From contig OY987227.1 in the NCBI GenBank assembly GCA_963920705.1, positions 8,721,602 to 8,785,601 of the forward strand: a stretch of DNA of 64,000 bases, given 5' to 3'. Shown here one piece after another: positions 19,464 to 62,874 of the stretch (the stretch's first letter is position 1; every line of letters starts with the position of its first letter). The position numbers and the translations under genes were made by a program. The notes beneath the pieces were generated by a model that worked only from the letters and a program-made list of their open reading frames with translations, was not told the DNA's origin and did not search any database. Source of the DNA: Odiellus spinosus (taxonomy: Eukaryota; Arthropoda; Arachnida; Opiliones; Phalangiidae).

Positions 19464-19723
19464 GCCGCGTTCATACTAAGCCTTGGAATCGATTTAAACC
19501 GTTTCAAAACGTTTCGCTGGAGTCGCGTGAACGGATACCGTCTTTTCTCTAATCGATTTGATTTCTCGAAACTGCTTCTGGAACCAGTTTCATTTCGAGT
19601 CGATTTCAGCAACCGATAGATGAAGCTACAAATCGATACATAGAGATAATGCGTGAGTACGTGACGCTTAAAACGATTCCTGGCGATTTCAAATTGATTA
19701 AGAAATGCTAGTGTGACCGTAGC
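19464..19723 (+). mobile_element. TA-type MITE family 1, copy C
   Basis: GCCGCGTTCATACTAAGCCT to GTGTGACCGTAGC followed by TA, with full-length internal blocks. The terminal repeats GCYRCGKTCAYAC are inverted. It faces copy B across the 48-bp inverted repeat. Confidence 0.85.
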
Positions 19724-20520
19724 TAAAGGTTTCTAAGCCATAGGAGGAGTTAAAGCTTTACACCTTGGTCCAAACTACAACTGATCACTAATACAATTAT
19801 TAAAATATCAGATTTAGAATTCATAAAGGGCGAAACCATACCTTCAGGATTTTCTCTGATTTTAAAAAAGGGATAGTGACGATAATCTTAGCTTTATACG
19901 CGTTGCATTCTCCGATTAATCAGTTTTTGAGTAATTACAAAAGGGAAATTATAACAATTGTCGGAAAAAAGGTATTCTCTACAAATTCTGAAGCAGTAAT
20001 TAACAGAGAACAGGTTTCACATACCGGTAATCTAGGGGTTCCACTTTTTCTCAATTTCTTTTTTTTTTTTTGGAAAAAGAAAAACCGATAGGATGCTGGC
20101 GATTTAGAACCAAAACTCAAACATTTAAGGGGCTTAAAAGGAATGAAGTGTAAGGCAGGGTGAATAAAAAGGGGTGGTGACGTCATTACGTGTTATTTCT
20201 TTATCCCCGTCTTTCACTTATATGCTTCTGTTAATGGACACATTATATAAGGATTTGGGTATCAATATCTGTTTGATCATTTTGATCATTTAATGGGTAA
20301 CCCAGGGCTTCACCGGATGACCACGTAGTGTAAAACGGGTTTTACAACAGGATTCGTTGAGTCATTTTACGTGGAAGCTTTCTAAAGAACCAACGGATGA
20401 GAGGAATCGAATTAAAACCAACATCACGTTTCGAGATTTTCTTGATATCGATAAAAAAATTAAGCCGTTATAATGAAAGAAGAACCCAAACGTTCCATAA
20501 GAATTTGGACAAGCTAATCA
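19724..20520. other. No supported gene
   Basis: Two overlapping opposite ORFs at about 19876-20186 share a poly-T/poly-A run and look accidental. Confidence 0.3.
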
Positions 20521-21010
20521 AACACTATTAATTTACAATGTCTAGAATGTTCTAGAAGGTTGCAGAAAAGCCTAGAGAGGAATAGAAAATTATGTTAATT
20601 GCTGGAAAGTTATAGAAAATTCTGGAAAATTAATTCTTTCCTGAAAATCTCTGGAAAATTCTAAAAAATTCGGAAAAATTCTAAAAAAATTTGGAAAAAT
20701 TCAAGAAAATTTGGAAAAATTCAAGAAAATTTGGAAAAATTCTAGAAAATTTGGAAAAATTCTAGAAAATTTGGAAAAATTCTAGAAAATTTGGAAAAAT
20801 TCTAGAAAATTTGGAAAAATTCTAGAAAATTTGGAAAAATTCTAGAAAATTTGGAAAAATTCTAGAAAATTTGGAAAAATTCTAGAAAATTTGGAAAAAT
20901 TCTAGAAAATTTGGAAAAATTCTAGAAAATTTGGAAAAATTCTAGAAAATTTGGAAAAATTCTAGAAAATTCTGAAAAATTCTAGAAAACTAACATGATT
21001 TTTCACGGGT
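20521..21010 (+). repeat. Dispersed repeat with internal 20-bp HSE-like array, copy 1
   Basis: The left border AACACTATTAATTTA and the right border TTTTTCACGGGTT are both shared with the inverted copy at 29820-30055. Inside, 20541-20567 reads as five pentamers GAA-TTC-GAA-TTG-GAA at exact 5-bp steps. From about 20655 to 20985 a 20-bp unit (TCTAGAAAATTTGGAAAAAT) is repeated about 17 times, with 11 successive identical units from 20741 to 20960. No ORF. A non-autonomous transposon is likely, but I could not define its class. Confidence 0.8.
20541..20567. promoter_or_regulatory. Heat-shock-element-like pentamer run
   Basis: GAA at 20545, TTC at 20550, GAA at 20555, TTG at 20560, GAA at 20565. 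This fits the alternating nGAAn/nTTCn rule of heat shock factor sites with one mismatch. Binding is inferred from sequence only. Confidence 0.55.
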
Positions 21011-22360
21011 TAATAAAAAATATTGCTTTGGACTAAAATTTATTTTAGCATTAGCTTGGAATTTTCTTTATGATTTGAAATTTGATTTATTCGATGTATA
21101 AATCATAACCTAACTTATTGTTCCTATTAATTATAAATACTAATTTCCACCAAATTTACATTCGGTTCAATACAAATAACTAGCTTTTTACCTTAAACCA
21201 ATTTCCATCTTATATATTACCACATGAAAATAAAATGTCATCATTTTCTATTAAAAATTTAAATCTGATATAAGGTCAAAAGAACAAAACATTTAAACAA
21301 GCGTCTGTAAAGCCGTGACCTTAAGGATCAGTCTTATAGCTTAAATCGCCGAAGGCCATCTTTAGACAATTGCATATTCCACGAAAAATATTCAACTACA
21401 AAAAAATATGAAAAACCCGTTTTTTGAGATATTTATAAAAACCAGTAACCGACTATAAAATCGAGACAATCCAACCCTAAGACCGCGATACGCGTTTAAA
21501 GCTACGTCTAAGCTAAATCATACTTTTCTTAAAAGTCCCTAAATCTAGAGTGTCGCGTACTTCAACTATACTTTCAAAAGAAAAATATTTAAAATACTCT
21601 ATTTGTAGCAGAAGTTTATTTTCGAGGTGAAGTTCCTAAAAAATATAACGCATCCAAACAAAATTCAACTCGGAACGTACAGAAAGTTTTATTTATAAAC
21701 GTATGGTAGTAAGTAGAGAAAAAAATGCTAATATCGGGAATGGCTCTCAAAAGAACGCCTCATTAAACAACAAGCTAACTTTTGGACAGACACGCCAGCC
21801 AGAACCAGTTAGATCTTGCATTTAATTCAAATTTAGGCTTATTTCGTTCAACCTCTACACGGGAAAGTAATCACTGAAGTATAGCTTCGTACCAATTGTA
21901 AAGTCGAAAGAAATTCTGACATACGATTGGATAAGGGAGAACAAAAGGCTGGTGACCCTCGTGAGACCCCCATTTCATTCGGATTTACGCTAATAGCCCC
22001 CGTATACGCATTTGTTTAAATATTACAAGGATACTTGGGTAATGGTAAAGGAGATAAATAGGGGTCATAATAGGTTCAATAACGCTACCCAATGACATTG
22101 ATCGCCTAATTTCGACAATTTCTACGAGTGCCTTTTCATGTCACTGTTTTATTTTACTCAATGAAATTACGCTTAAATATAGGTTTCATAACAAATTTAA
22201 TGGAAGGTGATTCGCAAATATATCAGGCTTAGAAAGCGTAAAGGGTTACTAAAACACTTCAAGTATTTTATTTTGACTGTTGCGCCTATATAAAGACCTA
22301 CCAAATGATACGAATTTATGAACTTCCAATTATATTTGGAAAATATCAGATTAAACTCAT
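21011..22360. other. No supported gene
   Basis: AT-rich sequence without a recognised exon or repeat. Confidence 0.3.
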
Positions 22361-29809: not shown

Positions 29810-29819
29810 CTAGCAAAAA

Positions 29820-30055
29820 CCCGTGAAAAATTTCGAATTTTTCAGAATTTTCTAGAGTTTTTCCGAATTTTCTAGGGTTTTTCAGAATTTTCTAGAATTT
29901 TTCAGATATTTCTAGAGTTTTTCAGAATTTTCTAGAATTTTTCAGAATTTTCTAGAATTTTCTGGAATTTTCAAGAAGTCTTCAGACTTTTCTGGAACAT
30001 TCTGCAAAAAGTTACGAACTTACGCACGTACAGACATAATAAATTAATAGTGTTT
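29820..30055 (-). repeat. Dispersed repeat with HSE-like 20-bp array, copy 2 (inverted)
   Basis: Read on the minus strand it starts at ACACTATTAATTTATTATGT, passes GCAGAATGTTCCAGAAAAGT, then about six to seven units of TTCTAGAAAATTCTGAAAAA type, and ends in TTTTTCACGGGTTTTT. The borders match 20521-21010, but the array is shorter and its units carry TTC where copy 1 has TTT, giving three perfect heat-shock pentamers per unit. The array is diverged between units, so it has not been homogenised recently. Confidence 0.75.
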
Positions 30056-30401
30056 CATACGTATAACGTATGCGTGTACGTGAAGCTATCCTTCGCGGTA
30101 ACGTTTAAGTTGGATAAATCCGTATGATTTCTAAATATTTTCAAAACATCCCTATTGTTAACACGATGAAGAAATGCTGTAAAAATGTATAAGAATCAAA
30201 CACGAACCATTAATTACAAAATCTTTTCGAAACTCGGAAAGAATAGGATTTCGTGGTTAAATCCCACGCAATTTGCGAAAGAAAAAAATAATTAAACAAA
30301 TATTAATTATCGTCCAATTTTTCAACAAAACTAATAAGCAGACAATTTTGAAAGGATCTTTTCCCCCGGCTCCATTTTGAAGTTAATGAAATATTTATTT
30401 T

Positions 30402-33986: not shown

Positions 33987-34849
33987 GTGAACGTTAATTG
34001 GATTACGCGGTCGCGGATCATACAGAACGTTGTCATCCTTATACGAAGTGTGTTTATTAACACTTCAAGATAGAATAGTGTATTTTAAAATTTTTGCGCG
34101 ACTTTTCCTTTGAAATTTTGATACTCTCGTTTATAATTTCGACCCATAAAAGCGATAAAAAGGCGAGGATAGCTAGTAAAGTATAGGGAAATAGTAATTC
34201 GAATTAGCTACCTATAATGTAATCGCGAATCGTGCAAAGTAGTTTATGTATTCTGGCTATTTTCTCATTCTAACTTTACTTCTAGAGAGAGATAAGAAAT
34301 TTTGTTTCTTGCACCGTTTGCACGAACGGAATTGTTAATTTAACAGCGCTGTATACGCGCCTCATCTAGCAAAAAGAAGCTTCGAATTTTAAATCTTATT
34401 ATTTTCCTCCCAAAACGAGCGTGATTTTAAACAAAAAAAAATTAATCTGGAAAAATCATTTTTCGTCAGTTCATTATTGAGAAAACGATTATATTATTTT
34501 TTGAAATCACGATTTGGCTAAGTATATAGAAATAATGCCTTATCGTTTACGTAATGATTATTTTTAACATACATTTAAATTTAAACGATATTTATCCCTA
34601 ACTAAGTCATTATATTAAGAATTTTACGATTGAAGATATTACGAACTAATTTATTTTCATTTTACTAAAGATATAATGAAAAAACGTGGAGGAAATGATG
34701 AATAAAGTTGGGAAATTGTTGAAATCTTGAAAAAATAAGTTGTAAAAATGCTCAAATGTTGGAAAACGTACAGGAAAAGATTAAAATAACTTTAGAAAAT
34801 GTTAAAATGTTGGATAATGTTGTCAAAAAATTGGACAACGTTAGAAATA
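33987..34849. other. No supported gene
   Basis: AT-rich sequence. From about 34680 it grades into the GGAAAA-rich array. Confidence 0.3.
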
Positions 34850-35210
34850 TTGGAAAATTATGGAAAACATTGGAAAATTATGGAAAACATTGGAAAATTA
34901 TGGAAAACATTGGAAAATTATGGAAAACATTGGAAAATTATGGAAAACATTGGAAAATTATGGAAAACATTGGAAAATTATGGAAAATTATGGAAAACAT
35001 TGGAAAATTATGGAAAACATTGGGAAATTATGGAAAACATTGGAAAATTATGGAAAACATTGGAAGATTATGGAAAACATTGGAAAATTATGGAAAACAT
35101 TGGAAAATTATGGAAAACATTGGAAAATTATGGAAAACATTGGAAAATTATGGAAAACATTAGAAAATTATGGAAAACGTTGGAAAATTATGTATAACGT
35201 TGGAAAAATA
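34850..35210 (+). repeat. 20-bp satellite with phased A-tracts
   Basis: About 16-17 units of TGGAAAACATTGGAAAATTA with few substitutions. One half-unit deletion occurs near 34990. Each 20-bp unit has two GGAAAA tracts exactly 10 bp apart. The three 130-codon ORFs over it (repeating GKLWKTLENY and MENIGK in different frames) are translations of the repeat. Confidence 0.95.
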
Positions 35211-35570
35211 TTGTACAATTATGTAAAACGTAGGAAAAGTAATGGAAAATTATGGAAAACGTTGGAAAAATATTGAAATATTATGGAAAACGTTGGAAAA
35301 ATATTCGAAAATTATGGAAAACGTTGGAAAAATATTGGAAAATTATGGAAAAGGTTGGGAAAGTATTGAAAAATTATGTAAAACGTTGGAAAAATATTGA
35401 AAAATTATGTAAAACGTTGGAAAAATATTGGAAAATTATGGAAAACGTTGGAAAAATATTGGAAAATTATTGAAAACTTGGGAAAGTATTAAACGTTTGG
35501 AACATATTAGAAAATGTCGGAAAATTAATGGAGAATACATATGTTGAAAAATGATGGGAAAATTATGGAA
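35211..35570 (+). repeat. Degenerate extension of the satellite with ~31-bp units
   Basis: Units of the type AAAACGTTGGAAAAATATTG plus AAAATTATGG recur about eight times with increasing divergence. Confidence 0.85.
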
Positions 35571-36570
35571 AAATAATTAAAACTACAATCGTTTTTGTCC
35601 GAAAACGCATGTGACCGATTATTATACTCTGAAAACAATTCAGTTCAATTAAAAAATACATTTTGATATATTTTTTATATAATTAACGTTCATCAAATAA
35701 TTTCGAAGCAAACGAGATACCGGTTATAAAAGTATATCTGATAGAGGTCAATATGAAAATTATTTTCATAAATTTATGATAATGAAGGTGTGGAATTAGG
35801 GTCTCCCAAAAAAATTTAGTTCCTATACCATAACTGTCATTAAAATAGTTTCTTGAAAATATTTTTATTTAGACTATGAGATTGAACTTGAATCGGATAG
35901 TTCTGTTGAAGAGTTGCTATAATTATTAAAAGACCGCAAACTTTCAGGCTTCAAATTTGTAGTATATACTTTAATGACAGTACGTGTCTTATATTTGATA
36001 TTATCGGTTCAGCTTTGAAGTCGGAATATAAGCTATTAAATTGCCGGAATCGATCTGACAGGAACAACAAAAGGATTACTAATTACGTTGACAAAAGATA
36101 TAGAGAAGAGGTCTGTTTATTTAACAACCCCTCCCCTTTTCTCCGTTCTATTCGCGTATTATTTCGGAGGTTGTTGGCCCTCTTTCATTCTCATAAATAC
36201 GAACAGTTATAATATCGAGTTTTTGGATTTAATCCAAGTCTCCGTTATTACATTAGTTTGAACCGTCCGTCTCCGAACGTAAATAGAGGTCTATGCCAAA
36301 TTTACCATTTAGATATCAGTACAGGTAAATTATGTCACTCTAGTAAGACCGCTTTGCAGCGATAAAACACTTTAACCGCTTTCTATTGTCACGTAATTCA
36401 TCATCAAAAGCGTATTTGCAGGTGTTACTTATTCATGAGGTGTTACTTATTGTAAAGGTTTGTTTTTGTCTCGTAGGTACAGCTGGATATATAAATATTT
36501 GGAGATTACGACAAATAGAAATTCATTGTCGCCTAGGATTATTGACACCTTAATCTTAATAGATAAAGAC
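35571..36570. other. No supported gene
   Basis: The 65-codon ORF near 36015 starts with TTG and shows no domain. Confidence 0.3.
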
Positions 36571-58711: not shown

Positions 58712-59113
58712 TTATTTATCAGTGCGGGCGTTTTTACAAAATAATTTGGGGATGTTCCATTTGTTTTTTAATATTAAACCCGGTTCAATGTTCATATTTT
58801 GTGAGTATTTTTTAATATAGATAGATTCGAGGATTTTTCTACGGTGGTAGTCATTTTCTTTTGCTAGAATTTCTGTTTTTTCTAGGTCTATTTTATGTCT
58901 GTTGGAATCACTATTTAATAAATGCATATAGATGGCATTATTTTTGTTTTCATTTTTAATGTCTCGTTTGTGTTCCTTTAATCTATCTCCTAATTTTCTT
59001 TCTGTTTCTCCTATATAAGATTTTCCACATGTACAATTAACTTTATAAATGACCCCAATTGTGTCTATTTTATTTTTTATATTTTTATTTTGTCGGTTTT
59101 TTTTCCCATCTGA
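58712..59113 (-). CDS. GIY-YIG endonuclease domain, minus arm
   Basis: Open from 59113 to the TAA at 58712. It carries GVIYKVNC, then CTCGKSYIGET, then RLKEHKRD, the GIY-YIG core with the paired-Cys feature found in Penelope elements, followed by MHLLNSDSNRHKIDLEKTEI with the conserved downstream H, E and K residues. The sequence matches the plus arm. It is +1 relative to the RT frame, with no ATG before the core, so it should be expressed by fusion to the RT. The enzyme is expected to nick target DNA for target-primed reverse transcription. Confidence 0.85.
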   Translation of the reverse strand, partial: SDGKKNRQNKNIKNKIDTIGVIYKVNCTCGKSYIGETERKLGDRLKEHKRDIKNENKNNAIYMHLLNSDSNRHKIDLEKTEILAKENDYHRRKILESIYIKKYSQNMNIEPGLILKNKWNIPKLFCKNARTDK

Positions 59114-60680
59114 CTAGTGTGTTTTTTAAGTTTTTTGCTTTTTTATTAATGATCTTTATGTTGTATTTTTTAAGTTTACGTTGTAGGTTTTCGTTGAATT
59201 CTTTGTAGTATGGAAGGAATAACCATATCTCGTCTTTTCTGTCTATTGTGGTTGTGATGATGTTATTGGTGTTTATTTGTTTTATTTGTTTTGGTTTTAT
59301 AAATCTATCGAGGACATGTGTGGGGTATTGGCTATTTTTAAGTTGGTTTTTAATTGTTTCTAAGTCTTTTCTTGGGTTGTTAGAAATGTTATTAATTTTG
59401 TTTGTGAGACCTTTTGCTATTCCATTTTTTACATGGAAGGCATGGTAGGACAGATAATTAAGGAATTTTTTAGAGTGTGTGGGTTTTTGGTAGTGGGTGT
59501 GGTTAATTGTAGTTGTGTTGTTTGTTCTATTTAGCATGACATCTAAAAAAGGTAATTTGTTGTTTTCTTCTAATTCTATTGTGAATTTTATATTTTTATG
59601 TGCTGAATTTATACGCGTTTGAAAAGATCTTAATTCAGTTATTCCATGTTTCCATACAGAAAAAATGTCGTCAACGTATCTCCACCATACGTTTGGAAAG
59701 AAATTATCTAGTTTTAAGATTGATTCTTCCAAATGCACCATGAATATGTTTGCTAAAATTGGTGAAATACTTGATCCCATGGGTAGGCCTTCAGTTTGTT
59801 TGTAGGTGGTATCATTAAATTCAAAATAATTTTGGTTTAAACATAATTCTGTGGCCTTTATTATGTTGTCTATATTTAGTTCAGTAATACTTTTTAAATT
59901 TGGATGTTTTTGTAAAAGTGTCTTTAGAATTATTAATGTTTCGTTGGTTGGAGTGCTAGGGTAAAGGCTTACTACATCAAAACTGACCATTAGGTCGTTT
60001 TTTGTTAGGGTCAATAAATCTACTTTTTCAACGAATTCCTCAGTGTTTAGTAGTATGTGTTGGGAGTCAATTAGGTTGTTGAAAATGGTAGCTAAGTGTT
60101 TTGCTAGGTTATTTGTGGGGGCTGCTGACATATCTACTACTGGTCTCATGGGGTGGTTGATTTTGTGTAATTTAATGTAACCTTTTAAATGAGGGAGTCG
60201 AGGATCTCTGACTCTCATAGTGAATTTAGTTTTATTATCTATCTGACCTGATTTTGCTAGATTAATGGTGAAGTTCGTGACATCCCGCGTAAGTTTAAGA
60301 AGGGAACATTTAGATTTTATATATCCCCCCTCTACAATTAAATTATTCATTTTTTGTATGTATATCGATTTGTCGAGGATAGCAATCTTGCCTCCTTTAT
60401 CTGCCGGTATAATAGAGATTTCATTTTTATCTATTAAAGTTTTTATCGATTTTCTTAAGTCTGAGTTTAAATTGTCTTTCGATTTATTAAGGTTAAATTT
60501 ATGTAACATATCTGTAATGATATGTATAATGTCAGTGGTATCGTTATCTTTAATGTAATTTTTAATAAACATTTTTTCAATTTCTACTATAATGGTAAGT
60601 TTATCCAAATCTTTGGTTTTGGTACGAAATTTAGTCCTAAACTTAATAAGTTAATCTCATTTTTGTCTAAAGTTGTTTGA
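59085..60680 (-). pseudogene. Penelope-type reverse transcriptase, minus arm, 5'-truncated and frameshifted
   Basis: 507 codons remain open from 60608 down to the stop at 59085. Sense motifs: KLHKINHPMRPVVD (Penelope KxHK region), SFDVVSLYPST, GLPMGSSISPILANIF, and the catalytic RYVDD at 59667-59681. Upstream, homology to the plus arm continues to 60680 but out of frame, because one T is missing in ATTTGG (60603-60607) against ATTTTGG. Homology then stops at the dimer junction, about 210 nt short of the plus arm's start. There is no ATG at the start of the open segment. The RT copies the element RNA at the nicked target. This arm is sense to the host gene. Confidence 0.85.
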
Positions 60681-60692
60681 CAGGAATTCGCA

Positions 60693-62501
60693 AAATTGAG
60701 CACCACATTTTACAACAAAATTAACAAGGACAAAGGCTTGATCATCAATCAGTGGATTGAAGAAAGCTACAACTCAACGTTCCAGGAACTTAAGGGTAAA
60801 CATATTAAAAAATACAATACCCTTCTTCAAGTAAAACTCATTAACCAATTATCCAACAAAGACCCGTTAAATACTATAGTGACAGACAATGTAATAAACC
60901 TTTCTCAAACAACTTTAGACAAAAATGAGATTAACTTATTAAGTTTAGGACTAAATTTCGTACCAAAACCAAAGATTTTGGATAAACTTACCATTATAGT
61001 AGAAATTGAAAAAATGTTTATTAAAAATTACATTAAAGATAACGATACCACTGACATTATACATATCATTACAGATATGTTACATAAATTTAACCTTAAT
61101 AAATCGAAAGACAATTTAAACTCAGACTTAAGAAAATCGATAAAAACTTTAATAGATAAAAATGAAATCTCTATTATACCGGCAGATAAAGGAGGCAAGA
61201 TTGCTATCCTCGACAAATCGATATACATACAAAAAATGAATAATTTAATTGTAGAGGGGGGATATATAAAATCTAAATGTTCCCTTCTTAAACTTACGCG
61301 GGATGTCACGAACTTCACCATTAATCTAGCAAAATCAGGTCAGATAGATAATAAAACTAAATTCACTATGAGAGTCAGAGATCCTCGACTCCCTCATTTA
61401 AAAGGTTACATTAAATTACACAAAATCAACCACCCCATGAGACCAGTAGTAGATATGTCAGCAGCCCCCACAAATAACCTAGCAAAACACTTAGCTACCA
61501 TTTTCAACAACCTAATTGACTCCCAACACATACTACTAAACACTGAGGAATTCGTTGAAAAAGTAGATTTATTGACCCTAACAAAAAACGACCTAATGGT
61601 CAGTTTTGATGTAGTAAGCCTTTACCCTAGCACTCCAACCAACGAAACATTAATAATTCTAAAGACACTTTTACAAAAACATCCAAATTTAAAAAGTATT
61701 ACTGAACTAAATATAGACAACATAATAAAGGCCACAGAATTATGTTTAAACCAAAATTATTTTGAATTTAATGATACCACCTACAAACAAACTGAAGGCC
61801 TACCCATGGGATCAAGTATTTCACCAATTTTAGCAAACATATTCATGGTGCATTTGGAAGAATCAATCTTAAAACTAGATAATTTCTTTCCAAACGTATG
61901 GTGGAGATACGTTGACGACATTTTTTCTGTATGGAAACATGGAATAACTGAATTAAGATCTTTTCAAACGCGTATAAATTCAGCACATAAAAATATAAAA
62001 TTCACAATAGAATTAGAAGAAAACAACAAATTACCTTTTTTAGATGTCATGCTAAATAGAACAAACAACACAACTACAATTAACCACACCCACTACCAAA
62101 AACCCACACACTCTAAAAAATTCCTTAATTATCTGTCCTACCATGCCTTCCATGTAAAAAATGGAATAGCAAAAGGTCTCACAAACAAAATTAATAACAT
62201 TTCTAACAACCCAAGAAAAGACTTAGAAACAATTAAAAACCAACTTAAAAATAGCCAATACCCCACACATGTCCTCGATAGATTTATAAAACCAAAACAA
62301 ATAAAACAAATAAACACCAATAACATCATCACAACCACAATAGACAGAAAAGACGAGATATGGTTATTCCTTCCATACTACAAAGAATTCAACGAAAACC
62401 TACAACGTAAACTTAAAAAATACAACATAAAGATCATTAATAAAAAAGCAAAAAACTTAAAAAACACACTAGTCAGATGGGAAAAAAAACCGACAAAATA
62501 A
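60693..62501 (+). CDS. Penelope-type reverse transcriptase, plus arm (about 602 codons, 5' incomplete)
   Basis: The frame is open from just after a TGA at 60678-60680 to the TAA at 62499-62501. Order: an N-terminal helical region (INKDKGLIINQWIEES and on, about residues 1-110), an alpha-rich stretch with the ADKGGKIAILDK motif (about 165-176), KLHK (about 240), SFDVVSLYPST (about 302), GLPMGSS (about 367), RYVDD (about 403-407) and a thumb-like basic C-terminus ending RWEKKPTK. The first in-frame ATG is near codon 108, so the true start is lost at the dimer junction or lay upstream. All RT catalytic residues that I can recognise are present. The ORF ends before the endonuclease, which continues in the +1 frame from the same A8 run. 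Confidence 0.9.
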   Translation, partial: KLSTTFYNKINKDKGLIINQWIEESYNSTFQELKGKHIKKYNTLLQVKLINQLSNKDPLNTIVTDNVINLSQTTLDKNEINLLSLGLNFVPKPKILDKLTIIVEIEKMFIKNYIKDNDTTDIIHIITDMLHKFNLNKSKDNLNSDLRKSIKTLIDKNEISIIPADKGGKIAILDKSIYIQKMNNLIVEGGYIKSKCSLLKLTRDVTNFTINLAKSGQIDNKTKFTMRVRDPRLPHLKGYIKLHKINHPMRPVVDMSAAPTNNLAKHLATIFNNLIDSQHILLNTEEFVEKVDLLTLTKNDLMVSFDVVSLYPSTPTNETLIILKTLLQKHPNLKSITELNIDNIIKATELCLNQNYFEFNDTTYKQTEGLPMGSSISPILANIFMVHLEESILKLDNFFPNVWWRYVDDIFSVWKHGITELRSFQTRINSAHKNIKFTIELEENNKLPFLDVMLNRTNNTTTINHTHYQKPTHSKKFLNYLSYHAFHVKNGIAKGLTNKINNISNNPRKDLETIKNQLKNSQYPTHVLDRFIKPKQIKQINTNNIITTTIDRKDEIWLFLPYYKEFNENLQRKLKKYNIKIINKKAKNLKNTLVRWEKKPTK

Positions 62502-62874
62502 AAATATAAAAAATAAAATAGACACAATTGGAGTCATTTATAAAGTTAATTGTACATGTGGAAAATCTTATATAGGAGAAACAGAAAGAAAATTAGGAGA
62601 TAGATTAAAGGAACACAAACGAGACATTAAAAATGAAAACAAAAATAATGCCATCTATATGCATTTATTAAATAGTGATTCCAACAGACATAAAATAGAC
62701 CTAGAAAAAACAGAAATTCTAGCAAAAGAAAATGACTACCACCGTAGAAAAATCCTCGAATCTATCTATATTAAAAAATACTCACAAAATATGAACATTG
62801 AACCGGGTTTAATATTAAAAAACAAATGGAACATCCCCAAATTATTTTGTAAAAACGCCCGCACTGATAAATAA
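62473..62874 (+). CDS. GIY-YIG endonuclease domain, plus arm
   Basis: In the +1 frame relative to the RT, open from 62473 (overlapping the last 29 nt of the RT ORF) to the TAA at 62872-62874. GVIYKVNC begins near 62539, then CTCGKSYIGETERK, RLKEHKRD and MHLLNSDS, ending in KNKWNIPKLFCKNARTDK. There is no ATG before the catalytic core, and the first ATG (62659) would omit the GIY-YIG residues, so it must be translated as an extension of the RT. Together with the RT it would carry out target nicking and reverse transcription. Confidence 0.88.
   Translation, partial: SDGKKNRQNKNIKNKIDTIGVIYKVNCTCGKSYIGETERKLGDRLKEHKRDIKNENKNNAIYMHLLNSDSNRHKIDLEKTEILAKENDYHRRKILESIYIKKYSQNMNIEPGLILKNKWNIPKLFCKNARTDK

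Follow-up and report, generated by a model that had tools for sequence, protein, structure and literature searches.

The dispersed repeat beneath the heat-shock-element-like array in our window (the whole 64,000-nucleotide stretch of Odiellus spinosus DNA that was analyzed, part of contig C3 of a 443-Mb genome in 286 contigs) is a non-autonomous canonical Helitron, and its 5' leader probably carries a strong predicted binding sequence for heat shock factor (HSF). The array itself is a local, degenerate expansion in which one six-pentamer site is near-perfect. The initial annotation had described a satellite of heat shock elements (HSEs), and that observation is confirmed and its interpretation supported in part: the HSE register is real, but the strong HSE belongs to the 5' leader shared by the family, and the 20-bp array is the expansion of a single copy.

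The assignment to the Helitrons was based on the ends of the element. Array loci elsewhere have in common a 3' end made up of a hairpin plus TTTTTGCTAG. The 3' end word CACGGGTTTTTGCTAG has 61 exact copies in the genome and the 5' end core ACACTATTAATTTACAATG has 63, compared to 0 for the reversed control of each, which bears out the placing of an HSE-like motif inside a dispersed repeat. Canonical Helitrons are described as starting with TC after an A and ending in CTRR before a T, with a hairpin ahead of the end (PMC8969392). In 55 of the 61 copies the base after the 3' CTAG was T, and because the copies were selected by a word that ends in CTAG, it is only this following T that tests the 3' end independently. 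The 5' end could be located in 32 of the 61 copies, 17 of which begin with TC and the other 15 with other letters; among the copies starting with TC, an A precedes in all 17 and CTAG|T is found at the other end in 16. A hairpin stem with at least five of six pairs stood before the 3' end in 34 of the 61 copies versus 14 of 1220 control positions. Since the dispersed repeat is itself a Helitron with canonical ends, the likeness to Caenorhabditis Helitrons drawn in the initial annotation was apt. Matches to Helitron_like_N (PF14214) were above the cut-off in all 150 that were scored, from 184 candidates, and in 0 of 14 control genomes, and many of them lie within long open frames. No autonomous element with the ends of this family was found in the genome: of the 150 RepHel positions, 46 were compared with the 61 3' ends and none had one of these ends within 150 kb, and the sequence read for 3 kb ahead of the best RepHel match, the one of the 150 whose upstream DNA was covered, contained one three-pentamer match and no leader. 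Judged by eye, a listed RepHel comes as close as ~50 kb to one of the 63 5' ends.

The window copy runs on the forward strand from 20518 to ~21011 (494 bp). Its 5' terminus, TCAAACACTATTAATTTACAATG (20518–20540), is preceded by an A at 20517, giving A|TC, and leads into the leader HSE, GTC-GAA-TTC-GAA-TTG-GAA, at 20540–20567 with 16 of 18 letters correct. Counted from 20545 (to 20567), the latter is the five-pentamer site with one mismatch that had been noted as preceding the array. Directly upstream of the leader HSE, ~28 bp of the usual family leader is missing. Degenerate 10-bp HSE-like units (20570–20654) lie between the leader and the tandem array (20655–20989), and the element finishes with a remnant of the Helitron 3' hairpin (TTTTTCACGGGTT) at 20999–21011, its terminal CTAG being lost or diverged and its last bases decayed. 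Adjoining the Helitron at 20476–20518 is the 43-bp end of another repeat (AAAGAAGAACCCAAACGTTCC...), which has 24 other genomic copies. Since it occurs as an inverted pair, roughly 650–700 bp apart, at locus L022, the 43-bp sequence probably belongs to an element with terminal inverted repeats that was the insertion target of the Helitron. We considered whether the 43-bp repeat was part of the Helitron and rejected this based on the Helitron sitting at the repeat's edge and on there being no array in the nine other copies read, ~900 bp each. A further, very abundant dispersed repeat is present at 19500–19728, for which a 1.1-kb query gave 2770 first-look candidates.

The array is built from the unit TTCTAGAAAATTTGGAAAAA with TTC, GAA, TTT and AAA at offsets 0, 5, 10 and 15, as the initial annotation had it, and the ~17 units claimed there correspond to 16.75 copies determined by TRF for 20655–20989, where periods of 40 and 60 were obtained with 96% matches. 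A looser 20-bp row (83% matches) was obtained for 20585–20989. The alternating HSF register was likewise said to persist for over 300 bp; it is continuous from 20690 onward, with 151 of 180 letters correct across 60 pentamers, and shifts by one base upstream of that position. This register is real and far above that of shuffled sequences. The eight-pentamer score was matched by only 15 of 20,000 shuffled and re-tiled units, so the proposal withstood the comparison with shuffled 20-mers by which it could have been refuted; moreover, neither the best six-pentamer score nor the 15 TTCnnGAA pairs of the array were reached in 500 letter shuffles or in 500 dinucleotide shuffles. The single perfect three-pentamer site of the array was equalled in 25 of 500 dinucleotide shuffles. 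Half of the pentamers are TTT or AAA, without the critical G/C, guanine being the most conserved nucleotide described for HSF sites (PMC8379338), and the array is therefore mostly a series of isolated TTCnnGAA pairs every 20 bp. Its best site, TTC-GAA-TTC-AAA-TTC-GAA at 20960–20987, spans six pentamers with 17 of 18 letters correct. Three-pentamer HSEs in this copy number two within 20518–20654 and one within the array.

A second copy of the same family (locus L043, 248 bp) is located on the reverse strand of the window at 29810–30057. Its 3' end, CTAG|T, is intact, its 5' end has diverged to A|TG instead of A|TC, and it has its own HSE array (29835–29997) and a perfect six-pentamer site (C3:8751551, 18 of 18 letters). 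Eleven of the 12 three-pentamer HSEs of the window fall inside the two Helitron copies. The array units, which were surveyed at 19 picked loci plus part of the window, were of 20 bp at L002, L004, L005, L006, L007 and L084, among others, of 30 bp at L034 and L042, of 40 bp at L049 and L056, and once, at L041, of 21 bp, so that the periods are mostly multiples of 10. The listed HSE-like units have two to four of their four pentamers perfect, and a few, such as that of L007, keep all. With units differing between loci, a length of 20 bp does not characterize the family, and given their differing lengths the arrays most likely expanded independently of one another, each from a 10-bp module that the element already had.

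Several other arrangements were observed in the course of this survey. At L042 (C2, near 20435859) a family copy has seemingly inserted beside the 3' end of a further copy, an arrangement that points to Helitrons in tandem or nested in one another. At G000:C8:4396616-4415159, tandem matches to the array extend over a block of 18 kb, which would be an expansion of the module to satellite size. Another array in the window, at 34845–35572 (TTATGGAAAACATTGGAAAA), is 10/20-bp periodic with GGAA words in one direction, has a low HSE-register score and is without Helitron ends; it was rejected as a family member because no leader match passed the filters there and the Helitron 3' end word was also absent, allowing up to 2 mismatches. 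Elsewhere in the window, 58712–62874 contains two copies of a reverse-transcriptase element (RVT_1) with identical protein stretches in a head-to-head inverted pair. The ORF downstream in this element had no Pfam match; it presumably resembles the GIY-YIG endonuclease of Penelope-like elements.

The majority leader, derived from 28 copies, holds TTCCAGAATGTTCTAGAAGGTTCCAGAA, which is six perfect HSE pentamers, followed by further ones in register. The genome has 471 runs of six perfect pentamers and 0 of the reversed pattern; the first 50 listed sites represent 29 loci, 12 of them leader-like within two mismatches and 17 not leader-like. For the 61 3' ends, the preceding 350 bp of each, 21,350 bp in total, contain 180 three-pentamer sites, compared to a single site in 25,615 bp just downstream of those ends. 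Part of this HSE signal is 10-bp periodicity, since counts of the reversed control word are raised too, at 27 within the elements versus 1 downstream. In the two window copies (494 and 248 bp) the six-pentamer score peaked at 17 and 18 of 18, and in 108 background chunks of 500 bp at 10–14, with 14 in one chunk; the background for both site counts and scores was 18 loci fetched for other repeats. In the perfect three-pentamer sites of the loci fetched, the TTC-GAA linkers were pyrimidine-purine in 369 of 410 and the GAA-TTC linkers in 26 of 410; the figure for all loci together was 22%. A preference for pyrimidine-purine in the TTC-GAA linker is described for HSEs, as is a crystallisation DNA with TTCTAGAA (PMC8379338). 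The linker bias is also due in part to the copies descending from a common source.

With regard to the host, one HSF DNA-binding exon with its recognition helix was identified in the genome; it reads NNMQSFIRQLNM and matches HSF chains of the PDB, including HSF1 of 7dcs/7dct. Eleven small-HSP matches were found, and upstream regions of 1.1–1.25 kb were read for seven of them. HSEs are present in four of these seven regions, ~20–60 bp before a TATA-like word, and absent from the other three, and the small-HSP and Helitron HSEs use the same words (TTCTAGAA, TTCCAGAA and TTCTGGAA). Across the 8,287 bp of the seven regions there are nine three-pentamer sites (reversed control 0), two of which, at the end adjoining the HSP20 domain, may be coding; the 18 unrelated loci have one in 56,568 bp (reversed control 2). 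The best six-pentamer scores for the seven were 14, 12, 11, 12, 13, 17 and 15. An exact family 5' end core at G000:C13:16838382 is ~15 kb from a small-HSP cluster (C13:16853208-16872082), a closeness that may be chance.

We propose that under heat stress the host HSF trimer would bind the leader and, to a smaller extent, the arrays, by analogy with the Helitrons of Caenorhabditis. The leader site most likely originated as the promoter through which an autonomous parent Helitron responded to heat and, as it is now carried in short copies, its HSEs would have become scattered over the genome. The 20-bp array of the window would then have formed as the 10-bp HSE module multiplied locally in tandem, with one TTCTAGAA pair per 20 bp kept and the other lost; given the loss of one pair of two, HSF binding is predicted to be weak except in the last units of the array and in the leader. 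We infer HSF binding, induction by heat and any effects on genes here from the DNA sequence.

A different origin, which we regard as unlikely, is that the Helitron took up a palindromic 10-bp repeat, which expanded as a passenger minisatellite through slippage and unequal exchange; its likeness to HSEs would be a by-product, and the sites, in closed chromatin, would go unused by HSF in vivo. Such an origin is consistent with HSE positions decaying no less than others, as relative to the majority of the 28 leader copies 11.4% of HSE positions differ, compared to 12.7% for linkers and 10.9% for the 5' flank, and G/C letters differ at 20.5% in the HSE versus 10.0% in the linkers, HSE figures that are inflated by L031, L032 and L078, three of the 28 rows without an HSE because they belong to or resemble a sister subfamily. 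Since HSE positions decay like linkers and flank, there is no sign of selection on the HSEs after insertion. Also in keeping with a passenger repeat is that array units vary by locus, often minus every second G/C pair, and that the sister subfamily does without HSEs. The 61 copies were sorted into 39 of subfamily A, 17 of subfamily B and five of neither; B has the same 3' end as A and a similar 5' end, and no three-pentamer HSE was found in its 17 copies, whose best six-pentamer scores were 10–13 versus 13–18 for the 39 copies of A. This contrast is partly circular, because the A/B split rests on similarity to an HSE-bearing query, which the count over all 61 copies does not. As subfamily B spread without three-pentamer HSEs, these are not needed for transposition. 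Growth of a passenger repeat accounts poorly, however, for the six perfect pentamers lying in the leader too, beyond the arrays, with pyrimidine-purine linkers and no long A-tract, for copies that score as high as or above the small-HSP regions of the host, and for the 471 six-pentamer sites where the reversed control gave none.

Two further explanations can be given very little credence. If the repeats were a curved-DNA satellite, A-tracts every 10 bp would curve the DNA, with effects on nucleosomes or replication, and TTC/GAA would be incidental; the A/T tracts at 10-bp spacing in the array and the predominance of periods that are multiples of 10 agree with this, but the majority leader is not A-tract DNA and yet has perfect pentamers, and the linker bias is that of HSEs. 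It is just as improbable that the Helitron transposase binds at the repeats or that they serve as a replication signal. Transposase contacts can be expected near a Helitron 5' end, and the repeats are indeed close to it, but the sister subfamily has the ends without the repeats. A Helitron with a predicted HSF-binding leader remains our preferred reading.

HSE-bearing Helitrons are described in Caenorhabditis (Helitron1_CE, Helitron2_CE and HelitronY1/Y1A/Y4_CE) (PMC6927752; PMC6765114), where the HSEs are reported to be bound by HSF-1, to gain Pol II and to lie near induced genes (PMC6927752), and where Helitron1_CE RNA increases with heat in an HSF-1-dependent manner (PMC6765114). According to the accessible text of a 2019 survey of genomes with annotated Helitrons (UCSC set), for which the search word is printed as NGAANNTCCNNGGAN, HSE enrichment was found only in three Caenorhabditis, and its authors considered that it may be limited to that genus (PMC6927752). 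Among the matches listed from the open-access literature, judged by titles and the starts of abstracts, none described Helitrons with HSEs from any genus other than Caenorhabditis. The family described here would represent a second, independently arisen case. We tentatively suggest, as a possibility somewhat short of an even chance, that the heat shock response has been captured by Helitrons on more than one occasion, and that an independent HSF-driven family may here have seeded many strong HSEs, some of them satellite-like, and rewired the heat response of nearby genes. If so, what appeared to be a nematode peculiarity would become a means by which transposons have repeatedly come to exploit and rewire the response to stress, and the family brings a built-in control in its sister subfamily, which has the same 3' end and no three-pentamer HSEs.

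Other heat-related repeats offer more distant parallels. Human satellite III of the nuclear stress bodies also has HSF target words in a tandem repeat, as a pericentric block, whereas here they are in short dispersed transposon copies (PMC9032817). The wheat Xuan-Feng element is likewise a Helitron linked to heat, with heat-promoted mobilisation demonstrated and, in the accessible text, HSEs and HSF unmentioned (PMC13286980). Unlike these systems and the Caenorhabditis Helitrons, the present family, HSEs included, is known from its sequence alone. It differs further from the Caenorhabditis elements in belonging to another genome, in its locus-specific 20-, 30- and 40-bp arrays, in having a sister subfamily without HSEs, in having no autonomous partner found in this analysis, and probably in its own terminal sequences. 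What it has in common with them, as far as they are described in the accessible reports, is tandem overlapping HSEs in high-density clusters, carried by mostly non-autonomous copies.
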